Position numbers and translations under genes: made by a program | Part shown: piece by piece, positions 484 to 5,421 of the stretch | Position numbering within the stretch: the first letter of the stretch is position 1 | Layout: each line of letters opens with the position of its first letter | Assembly (NCBI GenBank): GCA_003165615.1 | Contig: PLWR01000051.1 | Span: 1 to 5,426, forward strand | Source of the DNA: Acidobacteriota bacterium | Lineage (GTDB): Bacteria > Acidobacteriota > Terriglobia > UBA7540 | DNA: 5,426 bases | Direction: 5' to 3' | The notes under the pieces: generated by a model | Seen by the model: the letters and a program-made list of their open reading frames with translations, nothing else | Database searches by the model: none | Told to the model about the DNA's origin: nothing

Positions 484-963
484 TTGGCCGGCATTATGGA
501 ATCGGCCGGCATGAAATCCATGGAGATGAGTCCTGTCTTCGTGGTGGCCACAGTCAATGACGTGTCCCAACTTCCGCCCGAGATGCTCAGGAAGGGACGC
601 TTCGATGAGCTTTGGTTCGTCGATCTGCCCAACCAGAATGAACGGGAGGCGATCTGGGGCATCCAGATTGCAAAATATCATCGCAATCCGAAGGACTACG
701 ACAACGCCCAAGTGGCTCGGGCGACGGAGGGGCTGGAGGGAAGCGAGATTGAAAGCGGCTTTACGGACGCCTCGTACCTGGCCTTCGACGGCAACCGGGA
801 GCCTGCGGATTTCGACGTGGCGCGGATTCTCACGGAATTTGTGCCGTTGTCCAAGTTGATGGCGGAGCAGATCACCGGGTTGAGGAATTGCGCGAAGGGG
901 CGGGCGCGGTTGGCCACGTCGGCGCGGCAGGAGGAGGTGAGACTGAGGGGAATCGCGGCGTGA
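484..963 (+). pseudogene. 3' remnant of a Ycf46-like AAA+ ATPase
   Basis: The 159-residue reading frame matches only the back end of an AAA+ ATPase of the Ycf46/FtsH-like clade. Residues 17-26 (PVFVVATVND) hold strand 4 and the sensor-1 Asn25. LPPEMLRKGRFDE at 30-42 carries the arginine-finger region (Arg36, Arg39), followed by FVDLP. The small alpha-helical lid contains ATEGLEGSEIE (80-90), and the tail is LTEFVPLSKLMAEQI plus a basic end. Walker A and Walker B are absent. Family members are typically about 500 residues, so roughly the first two thirds are missing and ATP hydrolysis is not possible. The frame is free of stops and could still be translated from the TTG at 484 or an ATG at 496. 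No clear ribosome binding site precedes either. The gap to the peroxidase stop is 16 bp, so the gene was probably truncated by a deletion or rearrangement joining it there. An intact small protein with a new role is the less likely alternative. Confidence 0.72.
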
Positions 964-970
964 GGGTAGG

Positions 971-1049
971 AAAGAGGGAGTTCGCCTTTGGGCGGGCTCC
1001 TTTCTTTAGGTGTGAGGTGAGGAAACCACCTGCAATGAACTTATTGGCA
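971..1049 (+). repeat. Intergenic direct repeat, copy A (terminator plus conserved tail)
   Basis: This stretch recurs imperfectly in the same orientation at 4281-4357. Both copies have a GC-rich hairpin with a GGCGGGCTC right arm and a T-tract. Both then carry a tail with the shared blocks TGTG, GAGGAAA, CACCTG, AATGAAC and TTGGCA in the same order and at nearly the same spacing. In both, GAGGAAA sits between short GGTG and CACC arms that could pair as a small hairpin. Tail conservation beyond the hairpin argues against two unrelated terminators. The copies bracket the QatB-like/QueC-cyclase genes. It could be a scar of insertion or recombination, or a member of a dispersed intergenic repeat family. 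Confidence 0.6.
977..1007. terminator. Rho-independent terminator, bidirectional (repeat copy A)
   Basis: A 10-bp stem pairs 977-986 (GGAGTTCGCC) with 991-1000 (GGCGGGCTCC), including two G-T wobbles, around a TTTG loop, and TTTCTTT follows. On the + strand it ends the peroxidase/AAA-remnant transcript, whose last stop is 14 bp upstream. Read on the minus strand, the same stem is followed by CTCTTT and lies about 65 bp past the stop of the cyclase fusion gene. It therefore probably serves both converging transcripts. The hairpin is seen directly; the bidirectional role is inferred. Confidence 0.8.
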
Positions 1050-1066
1050 GACCACCAATCGCTCAT

Positions 1067-3139
1067 TCATGTTAGCTCCGATCTGCTTGGGAGGTCATTG
1101 GTGATGACATGCCAGCAATGGATGGGTTCCGAGGACCCTTTAAGCGACAGTTTGCCTGCATCCTGAAATAAGAATTGTTTCCGTTCGGAAGGGGCGATGC
1201 TCTGAAGAACACTCCCGCTGATACAAATCCCGCCTGGTTGAGCAGCTTCTTCGAGCCTCTTTGCGACATTGACAGTGGCACCCTGAAGATCACCACCCCT
1301 GACCGCATTCACGTCACCGGTGTTGATTCCAATGCGGACTTGAATCTGGATTGCCTCGTGGCGGTTCAGCTTTGCCACTTCTTCTTGCATGCTGAACGCG
1401 CATCGCAATCCGTCGAGAGCTGAATGAAAATAGACCATGTAGGAATCCCCGATTGTTTTTACGAGATTTCCTTCGTGCGAAAGGATGCAGGCGTCCATCA
1501 CCGCGTTGTGTTGTTCCAACATTTTCAACGTTGCAGGCTCATCCTGGTCCACCAGCGTACTGAAGTCTTTGATGTCAGTGAAAATGACGGTGAGGGTGTG
1601 GCGGCCGGGTGCTATTCCCAGACTTGAGGCATTTGGACTGTTCGTGCGTGGGGACACCTCCTCGCCATTCTCTGGCGCTGCCGGCAGCGACGTCACCGAC
1701 CCCGACTCGCAAACCGTCTTTACCAGGCAATCACCCGGCAAAGAGCGCGTCAACAATTCCCCGACGTGCCGCTTCAGTACCTCCTGCATCGCCCCGCGCA
1801 CCTCCACCCCGTGCCGCCGCTGCAATTCCAGCAGTCTCGCTGCTGCGCTCGCCTTGTTTCCGTCCAAATACCGTAGCACATCCGCCACCTGTGGGAACAC
1901 CGTCAGCAACTGGCCCACGTCCTTAATATTCAGGACCTCATTCGCCCTCTCCAAGTATGCCGCCCCCATCATCTTATCTGCATTCTTCGGTCGCGACTGC
2001 GTGAAAATGTCCACCTCGTAATTCTCCTTCGAATCAAATTCGTCTGCCTTCGCGGCAATGATTCCAAACCGCCGGTCAATGCACTGCGAACACACCCCAC
2101 AATGAGGGAACTTCAGCGTCGCCTCCCATGTGTGCGCACAGCTAACGGACGGAGTAATCATCGGCCCACACTTTGCGTCCAAAATTCTCTGAATAACCTG
2201 CCCCTTCGTTTCCCACATGAACGGGTTGTCCACCGTGAACGTTTCGCCTGCGACCAGCGAGAGCAGCGACTGAAATCCCCGCAGCACCCGCGGGTGTGTC
2301 GTGCGAGTCGCCCGCCCGCCCACCACTTGGGCGCACACTGGCAGGTTCAAACTCACCACCCCGTTCTCGTAGAATCTAACGTTGTGCAGACCGACCATAC
2401 GCGCGACCGTGGCCCCCAGTGCCACGTACAGGAAGGACCGGCTCCGCTGGGTAGACTCCCGGCCCAGCTTCTTATCCTTGTTGATCCGCACGGCAATGTG
2501 TTCAGGTTTGGGATACCCAGCTTTCTCCGCAAGCAGCCGCTCAAGCTCACGATGTTTACTGTTGTGCTTTTCCGTCGAACGATGGTTCACCAACACGATG
2601 CGCTGCTTCCGCACAATTGCCTCATCAATCGCCCCAGCTAGAGAATCCAGTCCCGCCGAGAACAGCATCACCTGATCCGGCTGCCCCAGCCCCCCACCGC
2701 CACCGTCTAGTTTCAGGTACATCTGGAAAGGCGGAGGGTCATTGGCCGGGTAGAACGTGAATTCATAATAGTCATCTGAAAGAAAACCCAGCGTTGCGCA
2801 CAGTACCCGCTTCATTTCCGCCCCATTCCAAAGGTCCGGCGCCCGCACCGGCACATGAAACTCAAACGCCCGCCGCCAACTCCCGCCGAACGTGTCCACG
2901 TCCTTTCCCCCGCGGCTTACAGCCTGGTCTGCCACATAAACATACGTCGCAATCTCCAGCAGGTCGTGGAATGCCGGAGGCACATCGCGCCTCAACCGCT
3001 CGTGAATGTCCTCGATCTCCAATTTTACATTCGGCTTCCCGTTTCGCCCCCACAGATCCAATTCCACTGCACCAGCCCCAAGCGGGAGCGCACCGGTCAG
3101 TTTCACTCCACCGCACAAAACTACACGTTCAGTTGCCAT
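1067..3139 (-). CDS. QatC/QueC-like enzyme fused to class III adenylyl-type cyclase
   Basis: This 690-residue protein is a fusion. Residues 1-150 form a QatC-type N-terminal region ending in a glycine run (146-150). Residues 156-380 are a QueC-like ATP-pyrophosphatase domain. It has the PP-loop FSAGLDSLAG (160-169; SGGxDS with Ala162) and zinc ligands Cys334, Cys347, Cys350 and Cys353 in SCAHTW...HCGVCSQC, followed by IDRRFG. A helical region (385-475) completes the QatC-like part, and a Ser/Pro/Asn-rich linker (about 476-512) follows. Residues 514-680 are a class III nucleotidyl cyclase. It has metal Asp522 (FTDIKDFS) and Asp565 (KTIGDSYM), adenine-type Lys561 and Asp617, and transition-state Asn624 and Arg628 (GATVNVAKRLE). 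No signal peptide or membrane segment is seen, so it should be cytosolic. I chose the ATG at 3139, which has AAAGGA 9 nt upstream and overlaps the upstream gene by 11 bp. The frame is open further upstream, but that would lie entirely inside the QatB-like gene. QueC makes preQ0; the QatC/Cap9 relatives act in phage defence. The substrate of this protein is inferred, not shown. Confidence 0.88.
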   Translation of the reverse strand: MATERVVLCGGVKLTGALPLGAGAVELDLWGRNGKPNVKLEIEDIHERLRRDVPPAFHDLLEIATYVYVADQAVSRGGKDVDTFGGSWRRAFEFHVPVRAPDLWNGAEMKRVLCATLGFLSDDYYEFTFYPANDPPPFQMYLKLDGGGGGLGQPDQVMLFSAGLDSLAGAIDEAIVRKQRIVLVNHRSTEKHNSKHRELERLLAEKAGYPKPEHIAVRINKDKKLGRESTQRSRSFLYVALGATVARMVGLHNVRFYENGVVSLNLPVCAQVVGGRATRTTHPRVLRGFQSLLSLVAGETFTVDNPFMWETKGQVIQRILDAKCGPMITPSVSCAHTWEATLKFPHCGVCSQCIDRRFGIIAAKADEFDSKENYEVDIFTQSRPKNADKMMGAAYLERANEVLNIKDVGQLLTVFPQVADVLRYLDGNKASAAARLLELQRRHGVEVRGAMQEVLKRHVGELLTRSLPGDCLVKTVCESGSVTSLPAAPENGEEVSPRTNSPNASSLGIAPGRHTLTVIFTDIKDFSTLVDQDEPATLKMLEQHNAVMDACILSHEGNLVKTIGDSYMVYFHSALDGLRCAFSMQEEVAKLNRHEAIQIQVRIGINTGDVNAVRGGDLQGATVNVAKRLEEAAQPGGICISGSVLQSIAPSERKQFLFQDAGKLSLKGSSEPIHCWHVITNDLPSRSELT

Positions 3140-3917
3140 CGAGCGTATTCCTTTCTGCAAGTTCAAGCTGTATTTTCCGAATCGCATTCCAACCGAATCC
3201 CTCGGAAGACTCCCGCGAGATGTTGCCTTTCTCCTCGAAACGGTGTTTCGACAGCCACTCCCCGCAAAAACTTTCCACAATCAGCGACGCCTCCTCGCAA
3301 TGCTTCCGCATCCCGTCCTTGAACTGCGCCACCTGGTTCGTCGTCACAAACCGGTGCCCCTCGCCGACTTCCGTCCCCAGGGTCTTGCTCAGGAAATAAT
3401 TCAGGAACTCACACGTCAGCCTGCCAAAGAACTTTCGCCCAAACGCGCCAAACTCCTTCTCCCGGTGCAACGGCCCAAGCTGGGCCGTCAAATCCTCGCG
3501 CTTCGCGTCGAACAGCGGCATCCCTTGCCGTGTCAGGTAATCTGATACCGTCGCCACCAGCGCCCCTTTCGCAATTTCTCCCCAGTCCGAACGCTGCCCC
3601 TTTCCCTCCATTCTCCGATCCAGCGCCTCAGTCAGTCCTGCCGCCAAATCCGCCACGGACCCGCCTGCCGCCAATTCCACCCCGACCGCAGCCATGTGCT
3701 CCGCCGCATCTTTGGTTGTCCCGGCCAGAGCCAACTGCACCATGAGGTGAACCGCTTCCCGGAAACCTGGGTCATTCTGGGCGGCGTTCAGCGCCCGCTG
3801 AGCGGCCTGTAGGGTGGCATCCGCCACCTTCGACACGTCCGCCCCATCAGCGATCAGCTTCACAACCTTCTTCCAAGGTTGTGTCATCGGCAGCTCGCCT
3901 AGTCGCTGGTGTCCCAT
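3129..3917 (-). CDS. QatB-like partner protein of the QueC-cyclase fusion
   Basis: This 262-residue protein is probably soluble, with no signal peptide or membrane helix. The N-terminal half (about 12-105) is alanine-rich and helical (VADATLQAAQRALNAAQ, MVQLALAGTTKDAAEHMAA), which suggests a helical bundle. The C-terminal half (about 155-255) resembles, from memory, proteins encoded beside QueC-like genes in Qat-type loci: FGRKFFGRLTCEFLNYFLSK, then GEGHRFVTTN, KHCEEASLIVESF, EWLSKHRF and a final helix with a KIQLEL-like end. No catalytic motif is recognisable, so it is more likely a partner or substrate than an enzyme. Its last 11 bp overlap the start of the fusion gene, which implies translational coupling and joint function. 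The start is uncertain. ATG 3917 (MGHQRL) has AGGAGG only 2 nt upstream, which is unusually close. ATG 3887 (MTQPWKK, 252 residues) has only a weak AGGCGAG and a 9-bp hairpin right behind it. The gene call is firm; the QatB-like assignment is moderate. Confidence 0.75.
   Translation of the reverse strand: MGHQRLGELPMTQPWKKVVKLIADGADVSKVADATLQAAQRALNAAQNDPGFREAVHLMVQLALAGTTKDAAEHMAAVGVELAAGGSVADLAAGLTEALDRRMEGKGQRSDWGEIAKGALVATVSDYLTRQGMPLFDAKREDLTAQLGPLHREKEFGAFGRKFFGRLTCEFLNYFLSKTLGTEVGEGHRFVTTNQVAQFKDGMRKHCEEASLIVESFCGEWLSKHRFEEKGNISRESSEGFGWNAIRKIQLELAERNTLDGN
3149..3154 (-). promoter_or_regulatory. Ribosome binding site deciding the fusion gene start
   Basis: AAAGGA on the minus strand lies inside the last codons of the QatB-like gene, 9 nt before the ATG at 3139. 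It supports that ATG over the in-frame upstream start at 3280, which would add 47 residues overlapping the upstream gene with no matching QueC-like sequence. Confidence 0.65.
3861..3883 (-). promoter_or_regulatory. Perfect 9-bp hairpin at the QatB-like gene start
   Basis: CACAACCTT at 3861-3869 and AAGGTTGTG at 3875-3883 are perfect inverted repeats around a 5-nt loop. In the minus-strand mRNA the stem begins one base after the alternative ATG at 3887 and covers codons for TQPWKKVV. Such a stem beside an initiation codon could reduce initiation at 3887 or tune expression. It could equally be a chance result of the codons. The pairing is seen directly; a regulatory role is inference. Confidence 0.35.
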
Positions 3918-4278: not shown

Positions 4279-4312
4279 AAAAAGGAGACCGCCTTCCGGC
4301 GGGCTCTTTTTT
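4279..4312. terminator. Rho-independent terminator, bidirectional (repeat copy B)
   Basis: The core CCGCC (4289-4293) pairs with GGCGG (4298-4302) around a TTCC loop. After one A-G mismatch the stem continues through GAG/CTC and an A-tract/T-tract, with six Ts at 4307-4312. On the minus strand it is followed by a run of five Ts (from the A-run at 4279-4283), so it can also stop transcripts from the caspase-like gene, which ends about 250 bp away. No + strand gene clearly uses it. Confidence 0.8.
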
Positions 4313-4357
4313 AGCTGTGGTGTGAGGAAAAGCACCTGTAATGAACATATATTGGCA
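4281..4357 (+). repeat. Intergenic direct repeat, copy B (terminator plus conserved tail)
   Basis: This is the second copy of the element at 971-1049, in the same orientation and about 3.3 kb away. The hairpin is followed by TGTG, TGAGGAAA, GCACCTG, AATGAAC and ATTGGCA, matching copy A apart from small indels and scattered substitutions. Divergence between the copies suggests an old duplication or independent members of one repeat family, not a fresh target-site duplication. Confidence 0.6.
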
Positions 4358-4565: not shown

Positions 4566-5132
4566 CTATGGCGGGTTTGACCAATTGGTGTCCTCCACCT
4601 CAACGCGGTCATAACAGAAGAAATCATATCCTGTAGCCTTCGAGGCTCTCTCAGTTGCACAGGACGGCTGCTCGTGTCGAGCCTCCATGTTGTAAATAAA
4701 CACATGAAAGCCAGCCGTGATGTCAAGCCCAGTAACCGTCCATCGTGGCCCGCACACATAATCAATCTCACAACAACTTGAGAACAAGCGCATCGCCACC
4801 TGACGAAGGCCACCGCGGCAACAGCCAAGAAGAAGGATGCTTTCCCGGTTGAGGCATTGGGACTCGCAGAGTGCGAGTGCGAACTGCTCCCACTGCATCA
4901 CCGTACTGCCGTCCGATTCACCAAACCCCGACAAGTCAGCGTGGGCACCTATGTAGATGTAGTCGAATTTGCCGTGTCCAACCATCGCAGCCTGAAAGCT
5001 GGCGGGGTGTGTTAGGTCAAATGTTTCATGGACCATCCCGAACATTTCGGCGATTGTCTTTAGGTGATCGACTTCCGCAGCGCACACGTCTCTGCTGGCT
5101 TTAAGGATGAGTAACTTTTTGGGCATAAGCAA
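4566..5132 (-). CDS. Small caspase/CHAT-like putative cysteine protease
   Basis: This cytosolic protein is 188 residues (186 if it starts at the ATG at 5126). After a LLILKAS strand and an amphipathic helix comes a hydrophobic strand ending in a His: FDYIYIGAHADLSGFG with His64. About 40 residues later another strand ends in Cys: ESILLLGCCRGGL with Cys104/Cys105. The strand-His-Gly-rich-strand-Cys order is that of clan CD peptidases (caspase, CHAT). The absence of extra domains makes it a minimal catalytic unit. Later blocks CEIDYVCGPRW and GFHVFIYNME look structured. Which Cys is catalytic is unclear. Start choice: GAGG, overlapping the stop of the upstream gene, lies 8 nt before TTG 5132 and 14 nt before ATG 5126, so TTG fits better. 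It sits 10 bp behind the ARWAK-repeat gene and is surely co-transcribed with it. Caspase-like proteins often act as effectors in bacterial defence. That role here is inferred, and the family call rests on motifs only. Confidence 0.7.
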   Translation of the reverse strand: MLMPKKLLILKASRDVCAAEVDHLKTIAEMFGMVHETFDLTHPASFQAAMVGHGKFDYIYIGAHADLSGFGESDGSTVMQWEQFALALCESQCLNRESILLLGCCRGGLRQVAMRLFSSCCEIDYVCGPRWTVTGLDITAGFHVFIYNMEARHEQPSCATERASKATGYDFFCYDRVEVEDTNWSNPP

Positions 5133-5142
5133 GTTGTGAACC

Positions 5143-5421
5143 TCACAGCCTTGTCTTCCCCTCCGCCCTCGCCTTCGCCCATCTCAGTTTGGCCGCTGCT
5201 GAAAGTTTGGCCCGCACCTCCGGACTGCTGCGCCAATCCTTCCTGGCCGGCTTGGGTGTTGCAGATGTGCCTTTGACCTTCGCCCACCTCGCTTTGCCCG
5301 CGGCACTCATGGCCGCCCTTCCTGCCGCGCTTATTCGCCTCTTGCGCCTTTTGGCCGGTTTGAAATCCGTTGACCCGGTCACCTTAATCTTGGCCCATCT
5401 GGCTTGTTGCGCAGCCGCCAT
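5143..5421 (-). CDS. Basic Ala/Lys-rich protein with three ARWAK repeats, probably 5'-partial
   Basis: The 92 visible residues are very rich in Ala, Lys and Arg. They contain three copies of a motif ending in ARWAK or LRWAK, at residues 7-11, 44-48 and 79-83, spaced about 36 residues apart. Each is preceded by a small helix-like SAAGKA/SAAAKL segment. The third unit, SSPEVRAKLSAAAKLRWAK, resembles NUMOD3-type DNA-binding motifs (S-x-E-x-x-x-K-x-S-x-A-x-K). Histone H1-like basic tails in environmental bacteria look similar. Nucleic-acid binding is therefore likely by inference. An ATG at 5421 follows CAAGG, but the frame is open to the right edge and the visible sequence begins inside a repeat unit, so the real protein may be longer. 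The gene lies 10 bp upstream of the caspase-like gene in the same direction, forming an operon with it. Confidence 0.65.
   Translation of the reverse strand: MAAAQQARWAKIKVTGSTDFKPAKRRKRRISAAGRAAMSAAGKARWAKVKGTSATPKPARKDWRSSPEVRAKLSAAAKLRWAKARAEGKTRL

Follow-up and report, generated by a model that had tools for sequence, protein, structure and literature searches.

A QatC-like protein carrying a class III nucleotidyl cyclase domain, and its QatB-like partner, in an Acidobacteriota contig

The gene pair and the QatC-like module

The window analyzed here, the whole 5,426-nucleotide (nt) stretch of contig PLWR01000051.1 from an Acidobacteriota bacterium, contains a gene for a 690-amino-acid (aa) protein in which a QatC-like module is joined by a low-complexity linker to a class III nucleotidyl cyclase domain, and, overlapping its start, a gene for a QatB-like partner (Table 1). 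The preliminary description of this DNA had reported the fusion as one polypeptide at this position; its coordinates are right, and the coding strand is the minus strand, stops interrupting the frame when the same interval is read on the plus strand. The PP-loop and the four cysteines that it listed are present as well; the overlapping QatB-like gene does not figure in it.

The QueC/QatC relation proposed there is supported by the domain search. The module matches PADLOC QatC (E 6.4e-51) and Pfam QueC (27.4 bits, cut-off 22), and its PDB sequence matches include the QatC chains 9vlk (E 3.6e-27) and 9zee (E 3e-25). The NCBIfam QatC model gives 199.5 bits, under the 280-bit cut-off, and the module therefore falls outside NCBI's QatC family; the identity to six plasmid QatC proteins in the alignment is 24–30%. 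The PP-loop departs from SGGxDS at residue 162, which is Ala in the window protein and in P0002, whereas the remaining 18 rows of alignment A6 have Gly; S161, G163, D165, and S166 are invariant in alignment A4 (with the six plasmid QatC). The TRTTHP stretch aligns onto TRTTHP of both solved QatC sequences, and all 19 A6 rows have Thr at residue 280, while at residue 278 there is Thr in 15 of them and Ser in the other 4. According to the available text of PMC13279940, from which the role of this Thr pair is also taken, it occupies the position of Tyr/Asp in QueC and Cap9. All three features, the QatC-type Thr pair, the PP-loop (with one Gly replaced by Ala), and the Cys4 site, are found in the fusion protein.

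Table 1. Coordinates of the features in the window.
Feature	Position	Strand	Basis
qatC-cyclase fusion gene, 690 aa	1067..3139	(-)	single ORF, ATG at 3139, stop at 1067
QatC-like module, residues 1-489	1673..3139	(-)	PADLOC, NCBIfam, and PDB matches; alignment with six plasmid QatC
PP-loop SAGLDS, residues 161-166	2642..2659	(-)	
TRTTHP, residues 278-283, with QatC-type threonines T278/T280	2291..2308	(-)	alignment with solved QatC
Zinc site Cys334, 347, 350, 353	2081..2140	(-)	invariant in alignments A4 and A6
Low-complexity linker (module junction), residues 490-512	1604..1672	(-)	family core ends at ~488
Class III nucleotidyl cyclase domain, residues 513-690	1070..1603	(-)	Pfam PF00211; PDB alignments to 3mr7 and Ma1120
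QatB-like partner gene, 262 aa	3129..3917	(-)	listed family, related loci, predicted QatB fold
N-terminal MGHQRLGELPMTQPW, predicted modification tail with Gly2	3873..3917	(-)	A1 conservation
11-nt overlap of QatB-like gene and qatC-cyclase start	3129..3139	(-)	ORF coordinates
Direct repeat, left copy, 77-nt, imperfect, with hairpin; 18 nt from the stop codon of the fusion	972..1048	(+)	
Direct repeat, right copy, upstream of QatB-like gene	4279..4356	(+)	

The cyclase domain and the reality of the fusion

Residues 515–676 match Pfam Guanylate_cyc with E 4e-25 and 88.9 bits (cut-off 21.9), and the catalytic positions D522, K561, D565, D617, N624, and R628 are intact, six out of six, in agreement with the earlier claim of a complete class III cyclase. 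We take D522 and D565 to be the metal aspartates and N624/R628 to be the Asn/Arg transition-state pair; K561/D617 is presumably the adenine-recognizing Lys/Asp pair of adenylyl cyclases. In the PDB alignment Lys561 and Asp617 fall on the Lys and Asp of Ma1120, which makes cyclic AMP (cAMP) the likeliest product, as judged from the sequence.

The PADLOC PycC models also match the domain (best E 1.6e-10), as would be expected of a Pycsar-like arrangement, in which defence would rest on the cyclase, as the maker of a cyclic pyrimidine, and QatC would be no more than its sensor. These matches are, however, far weaker than that to the general cyclase model, and the PycC models do equally well on other class 3 cyclases (P0170, 2e-10; P0175, 7e-11), on which ground a Pycsar assignment was rejected. 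With the adenine pair present, and with no PycTM or PycTIR effector recognized among the window open reading frames (ORFs) scanned with Pfam and PADLOC, such an arrangement is very improbable.

The cyclase might otherwise be a non-productive passenger, that is, a nucleotide-binding or dimerizing domain that regulates QatC, with its catalysis unused. The GC content at third codon positions (GC3) is lower in the cyclase part than in the QatC part (0.584 against 0.693), suggesting a recent graft; no effector is recognized nearby, and of the two examples of the fusion the second is damaged as read. These points would fit a passenger, but the intact catalytic set of the window protein argues against it, and we regard it as rather improbable.

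The search of about 5.8 billion proteins gave at least 2,492 matches, of which 120 were considered, and that with residues 400–690 gave at least 436, with the best 120 considered; rarer cyclase-tailed relatives may exist beyond these. The matches include the 690-aa protein (P0001) from two contigs, of which the longer has 7,921 nt; a 4,723-nt contig codes for P0003, a partial relative (86% over residues 176–578) in which QatC and cyclase are joined in the same way. As read, P0003 looks frame-shifted at some points, has no D565, and stops short of D617; it is evidence for the join, not for the cyclase being intact, and its support for the fusion is weak. The small number of contigs with the fusion could point to an assembly chimera of two genes; yet one open frame runs across the linker, and the protein comes from two contigs and its partial relative from a third, which leaves a chimera scarcely credible. 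The fusion is real and unusual. Among the best 120 of the 436 matches to residues 400–690 there is no further QatC-cyclase protein, and no cyclase-like ORF was found in the 160 related loci described below or in additional short loci. The nearest cyclase domain outside the fusion, among the same best 120, belongs to P0167 (58% identity). P0167 is a cyclase-NACHT protein, possibly of a STAND system with cyclic-nucleotide output.

The QatB-like partner and its N-terminal glycine

The partner belongs to a QatB-like family of 45 listed proteins, the window's own included. In alignment A1, W15 is invariant, and M1, G2, H3, and P10 are nearly so. If any Gly that comes after Met, Val, or Leu at most 5 residues from the profile start is taken as Gly2, this residue is present in all 150 related loci with a readable N-terminus (5 of 155 were unreadable), as MGH in 147, MGN in 2, and MGT in 1, compared with the canonical MGTS. 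For canonical QatB, the available text of PMC13279940 describes this MGTS start, the loss of defence upon G2D or upon deletion of residues 16–22 (conserved Pro/Trp), and a model with the N-terminus inside the QatC active site. Among eight canonical QatB aligned here six begin with MGTS, followed by PLVPSW variants; those of L162 and L168 have annotated starts without the MGTS/PLVPSW part.

The partner is predicted to adopt the QatB fold, with residues 1–14 at a predicted local distance difference test (pLDDT) score below 50 in the predicted structure. Profile comparison of the family with QatB led nowhere, and the PDB chains obtained with the family profile were of EF-hand, ETS, and SRP-receptor only (best E 0.0009) and were taken as chance. 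A match of the protein to AbiEi has E 1.9e-4, and 9 of 29 family members match it (best 1.4e-5). A scan of viral contigs with the single QatB-like protein gave no relative, and phage records gave two remote matches only.

A QatBC branch with exchangeable tails

Related loci were collected by a scan of genome contigs (80 of 279 kept) and of IMG/VR viral contigs (80 of 149 kept), giving 160 loci of 3.0–21.5 kb. The QatB-like gene is found in 155 of them; in four of the other five (L126, L140, L151, and L158) qatC lies at the locus end, and in L014 it does not. Neither the QatA NTPase nor the QatD TatD nuclease was found in the fetched stretches of any of the 160 loci or in the window. The same queries find both in all eight canonical loci (L161–L168), five of which were not query sources. 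A serine-recombinase-like ORF accompanies the pair in 38 of the 80 genome loci and 61 of the 80 viral loci.

At E 1e-20, the QatC core was found in 13 of 387 genomes of Verrucomicrobiota (the phylum of L029). Five of these (L170–L174) have a long-tailed QatC with a partner gene matching the A1 profile, three being re-findings of L029, L003, and apparently L044; the remaining QatC are of 428–487 aa, and six (L177–L182) look like ordinary Qat because of QatD-like ORFs nearby. At E 1e-60, with the centre genomes counted, the core was found in 4 of 217 Acidobacteriota genomes (the phylum of L057) and in 5 of 216 Planctomycetota genomes (that of L042).

The usual C-terminal domain of this QatC branch is winged-helix-like, and it is this tail that the fused cyclase replaces. 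On the tree, 24 changes are counted across 21 classes, for which 20 is the least possible number. The QatC-like proteins of L057, L061, and L075 have tails of 425–444 aa, and the two of them on the tree are Acidobacteriota; the tail of L057, the one of the three scanned, has no Pfam match. In the QatC-like protein of a Leptospira noguchii plasmid (L169:3935-5800) the tail is a DpnII-MboI nuclease (PF18742), and the QatB-like partner is of the MGH type. On a Bradyrhizobium ottawaense plasmid (L168:3815-5947) QatC and TatD (QatD) form one protein, annotated as plain QatC.

These tails also bear on the main rival to an immune role, in which QatBC with a C-terminal regulator would serve mobile-element control and not act as an immune effector, the winged helix binding element or host DNA and the window cyclase feeding cAMP regulators that belong to the host. 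Defence genes, however, are also often carried by prophage-like elements, and nuclease and TatD tails are better suited to an effector than to a regulator. In addition, QatC and the QatB-like protein keep the residues and the motif essential to canonical Qat defence (as given in the available text of PMC13279940), and mobile-element control appears unlikely.

Surroundings of the gene pair

The pair is bracketed by the two direct repeats, which carry a hairpin and a T-run on the plus strand and align with a local score of 76, against 33 for the next-best pair in the window. The same test found no comparable flanking repeat in 137 related loci (best score 38). The repeat was rejected as a common element. 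No full copy was seen in related loci: nhmmer gave no match in 187 loci (E up to 10), and blastn-short gave matches of 14–19 nt only. Partial matches, nearly all to the hairpin part, occur in 14 of the 387 Verrucomicrobiota genomes. The sole Rfam match up to E 1 scores 21.7 bits against a gathering score of 114. The repeats may be cassette ends or att-like sites; integron attC was set aside, since inspection by eye showed no core-site consensus.

Next to the left repeat lies a piece of an AAA gene (484-963, plus strand) and then a peroxiredoxin gene, which shares 74% identity with a counterpart in the L029-bearing Limisphaerales genome; on this ground the host is probably related to Verrucomicrobiota. 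The piece, FtsH/PAN-like, covers only the C-terminal half of the AAA domain (NCBIfam 8e-11, under cut-offs), begins 16 nt past the peroxiredoxin stop, and is likely a truncated remnant. On the other side, an ORF of 188 aa (4566-5132, minus strand) with the His/Cys motifs GAHAD and LGCCRGG is caspase/CHAT-like by eye, with no match in Pfam, PADLOC, or NCBIfam; its one homologue in the 387 Verrucomicrobiota genomes (L183, 38%) lies near ORFs that are phage-terminase-like by eye. A repetitive Lys/Ala-rich ORF of 92 aa (5146-5421, minus strand) contains AAGKARWAKVKG-type units.

Proposed mechanism and significance

Our preferred interpretation, to which we give a probability of about one half, is a two-gene QatB-QatC module with a class III adenylyl cyclase in the C-terminal slot of QatC, working in the following way. 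The QatB-like protein would form a complex with QatC, and the QatC active site, using ATP, would modify Gly2 of the QatB-like protein, a step modeled on the action of Cap9 on its CD-NTase and on the proposal for canonical QatBC. Infection or another trigger would then alter this modification or the way in which the complex is assembled, upon which the cyclase domains would pair, as they must since class III cyclases require a dimer, and make cAMP from ATP as the signal. The analysis established how the fusion protein is built, that its catalytic residues are intact, which fold is predicted for the partner, that Gly2 is conserved there, and that tails have been exchanged; we infer the complex, the modification of Gly2, the gating by dimer formation, cAMP as the product, and a role in phage defence. 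Switching of the fused cyclase by the QatC chemistry is a plausible hypothesis. No cyclic-nucleotide receptor was recognized in the window, a point against a signalling operon complete in itself.

The fusion is not a new kind of enzyme; it is the QatBC module in a new variant form. Behind it apparently stands a larger, undescribed QatBC branch, lacking QatA and QatD and with exchangeable output domains, to which the available literature texts make no reference. This stand-alone MGH-type QatB-QatC branch may possibly, though we hold it at less than even odds, be a so far undescribed modular platform for signalling or immunity, spread through bacteria and prophage-like elements. In it, a small helical partner would be modified at its N-terminus by a QueC-family enzyme, and different output domains could occupy the C-terminal slot of QatC (a winged helix, a restriction nuclease, TatD in the case of canonical Qat, and an adenylyl cyclase in the window). 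If true, this would be the first case of N-terminal protein modification by a QueC-family enzyme gating cyclic mononucleotide synthesis. In the available text of PMC13279940 (2026), the QatC reaction and the route from QatB modification to phage arrest are given as open questions, and QatC activity as not reconstituted in vitro. A natural QatC with a possible soluble cyclic-nucleotide output would be a direct readout of the "on" state of QatBC, and the fusion could give an unexplained immune reaction a measurable product.

Comparison with known systems

The preliminary description held that no described system contains this fusion, and the literature search, covering full texts other than subscription papers and most preprints, found none on a QatC-cyclase fusion among the papers listed. 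The words "cyclase", "fusion", "fused", and "winged" each occur 0 times in the main text of PMC13279940; in the available text of PMC13329287 "cyclase" and "fused" occur 0 times, and "fusion" occurs once, for a GATase fusion in a different family.

With qatABCD the window shares a QueC-family QatC with QatC-type residues and an adjacent upstream partner that has Gly2 and is predicted to have the QatB fold and a flexible N-terminus. It differs in the N-terminal motif (MGH..LP...W, against MGTS in canonical QatB), in the extra C-terminal domain of QatC, and in QatA and QatD, which were not found in the window or in the stretches covered by the 160 loci. Type IV cyclic-oligonucleotide-based antiphage signalling systems (CBASS) likewise have a QueC-family enzyme whose neighbouring partner bears Gly at the N-terminus, and a link to nucleotide signalling, whereas in the window the cyclase, of class III, forms part of the QueC-like enzyme. 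Cap9 has Tyr/Asp (residues taken from the available text of PMC13279940, not from an alignment) in place of the Thr pair. No CD-NTase match was obtained among the six window ORFs scanned with Pfam or the five scanned with PADLOC, and on this, together with the Thr pair, a type IV CBASS analogue was rejected. The earlier suggestion that the cyclase stands in place of the CBASS CD-NTase is the weaker comparison, given T278/T280, the QatB-like candidate substrate, and the replacement of the usual tail.

The class III cyclase fold is common to the window protein and Pycsar PycC; the fusion to QatC and, as judged from the alignment to Ma1120, the K/D adenine pair set the former apart. P0167, closest in its cyclase domain among the best 120 of 436 matches, carries that domain N-terminally on a NACHT NTPase and not on QatC. 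The QatC-TatD fusion of Bradyrhizobium ottawaense shares with the window protein an enzyme domain on the C-terminus of QatC; its locus is, in contrast, canonical Qat, and its added domain is a QatD-type nuclease.
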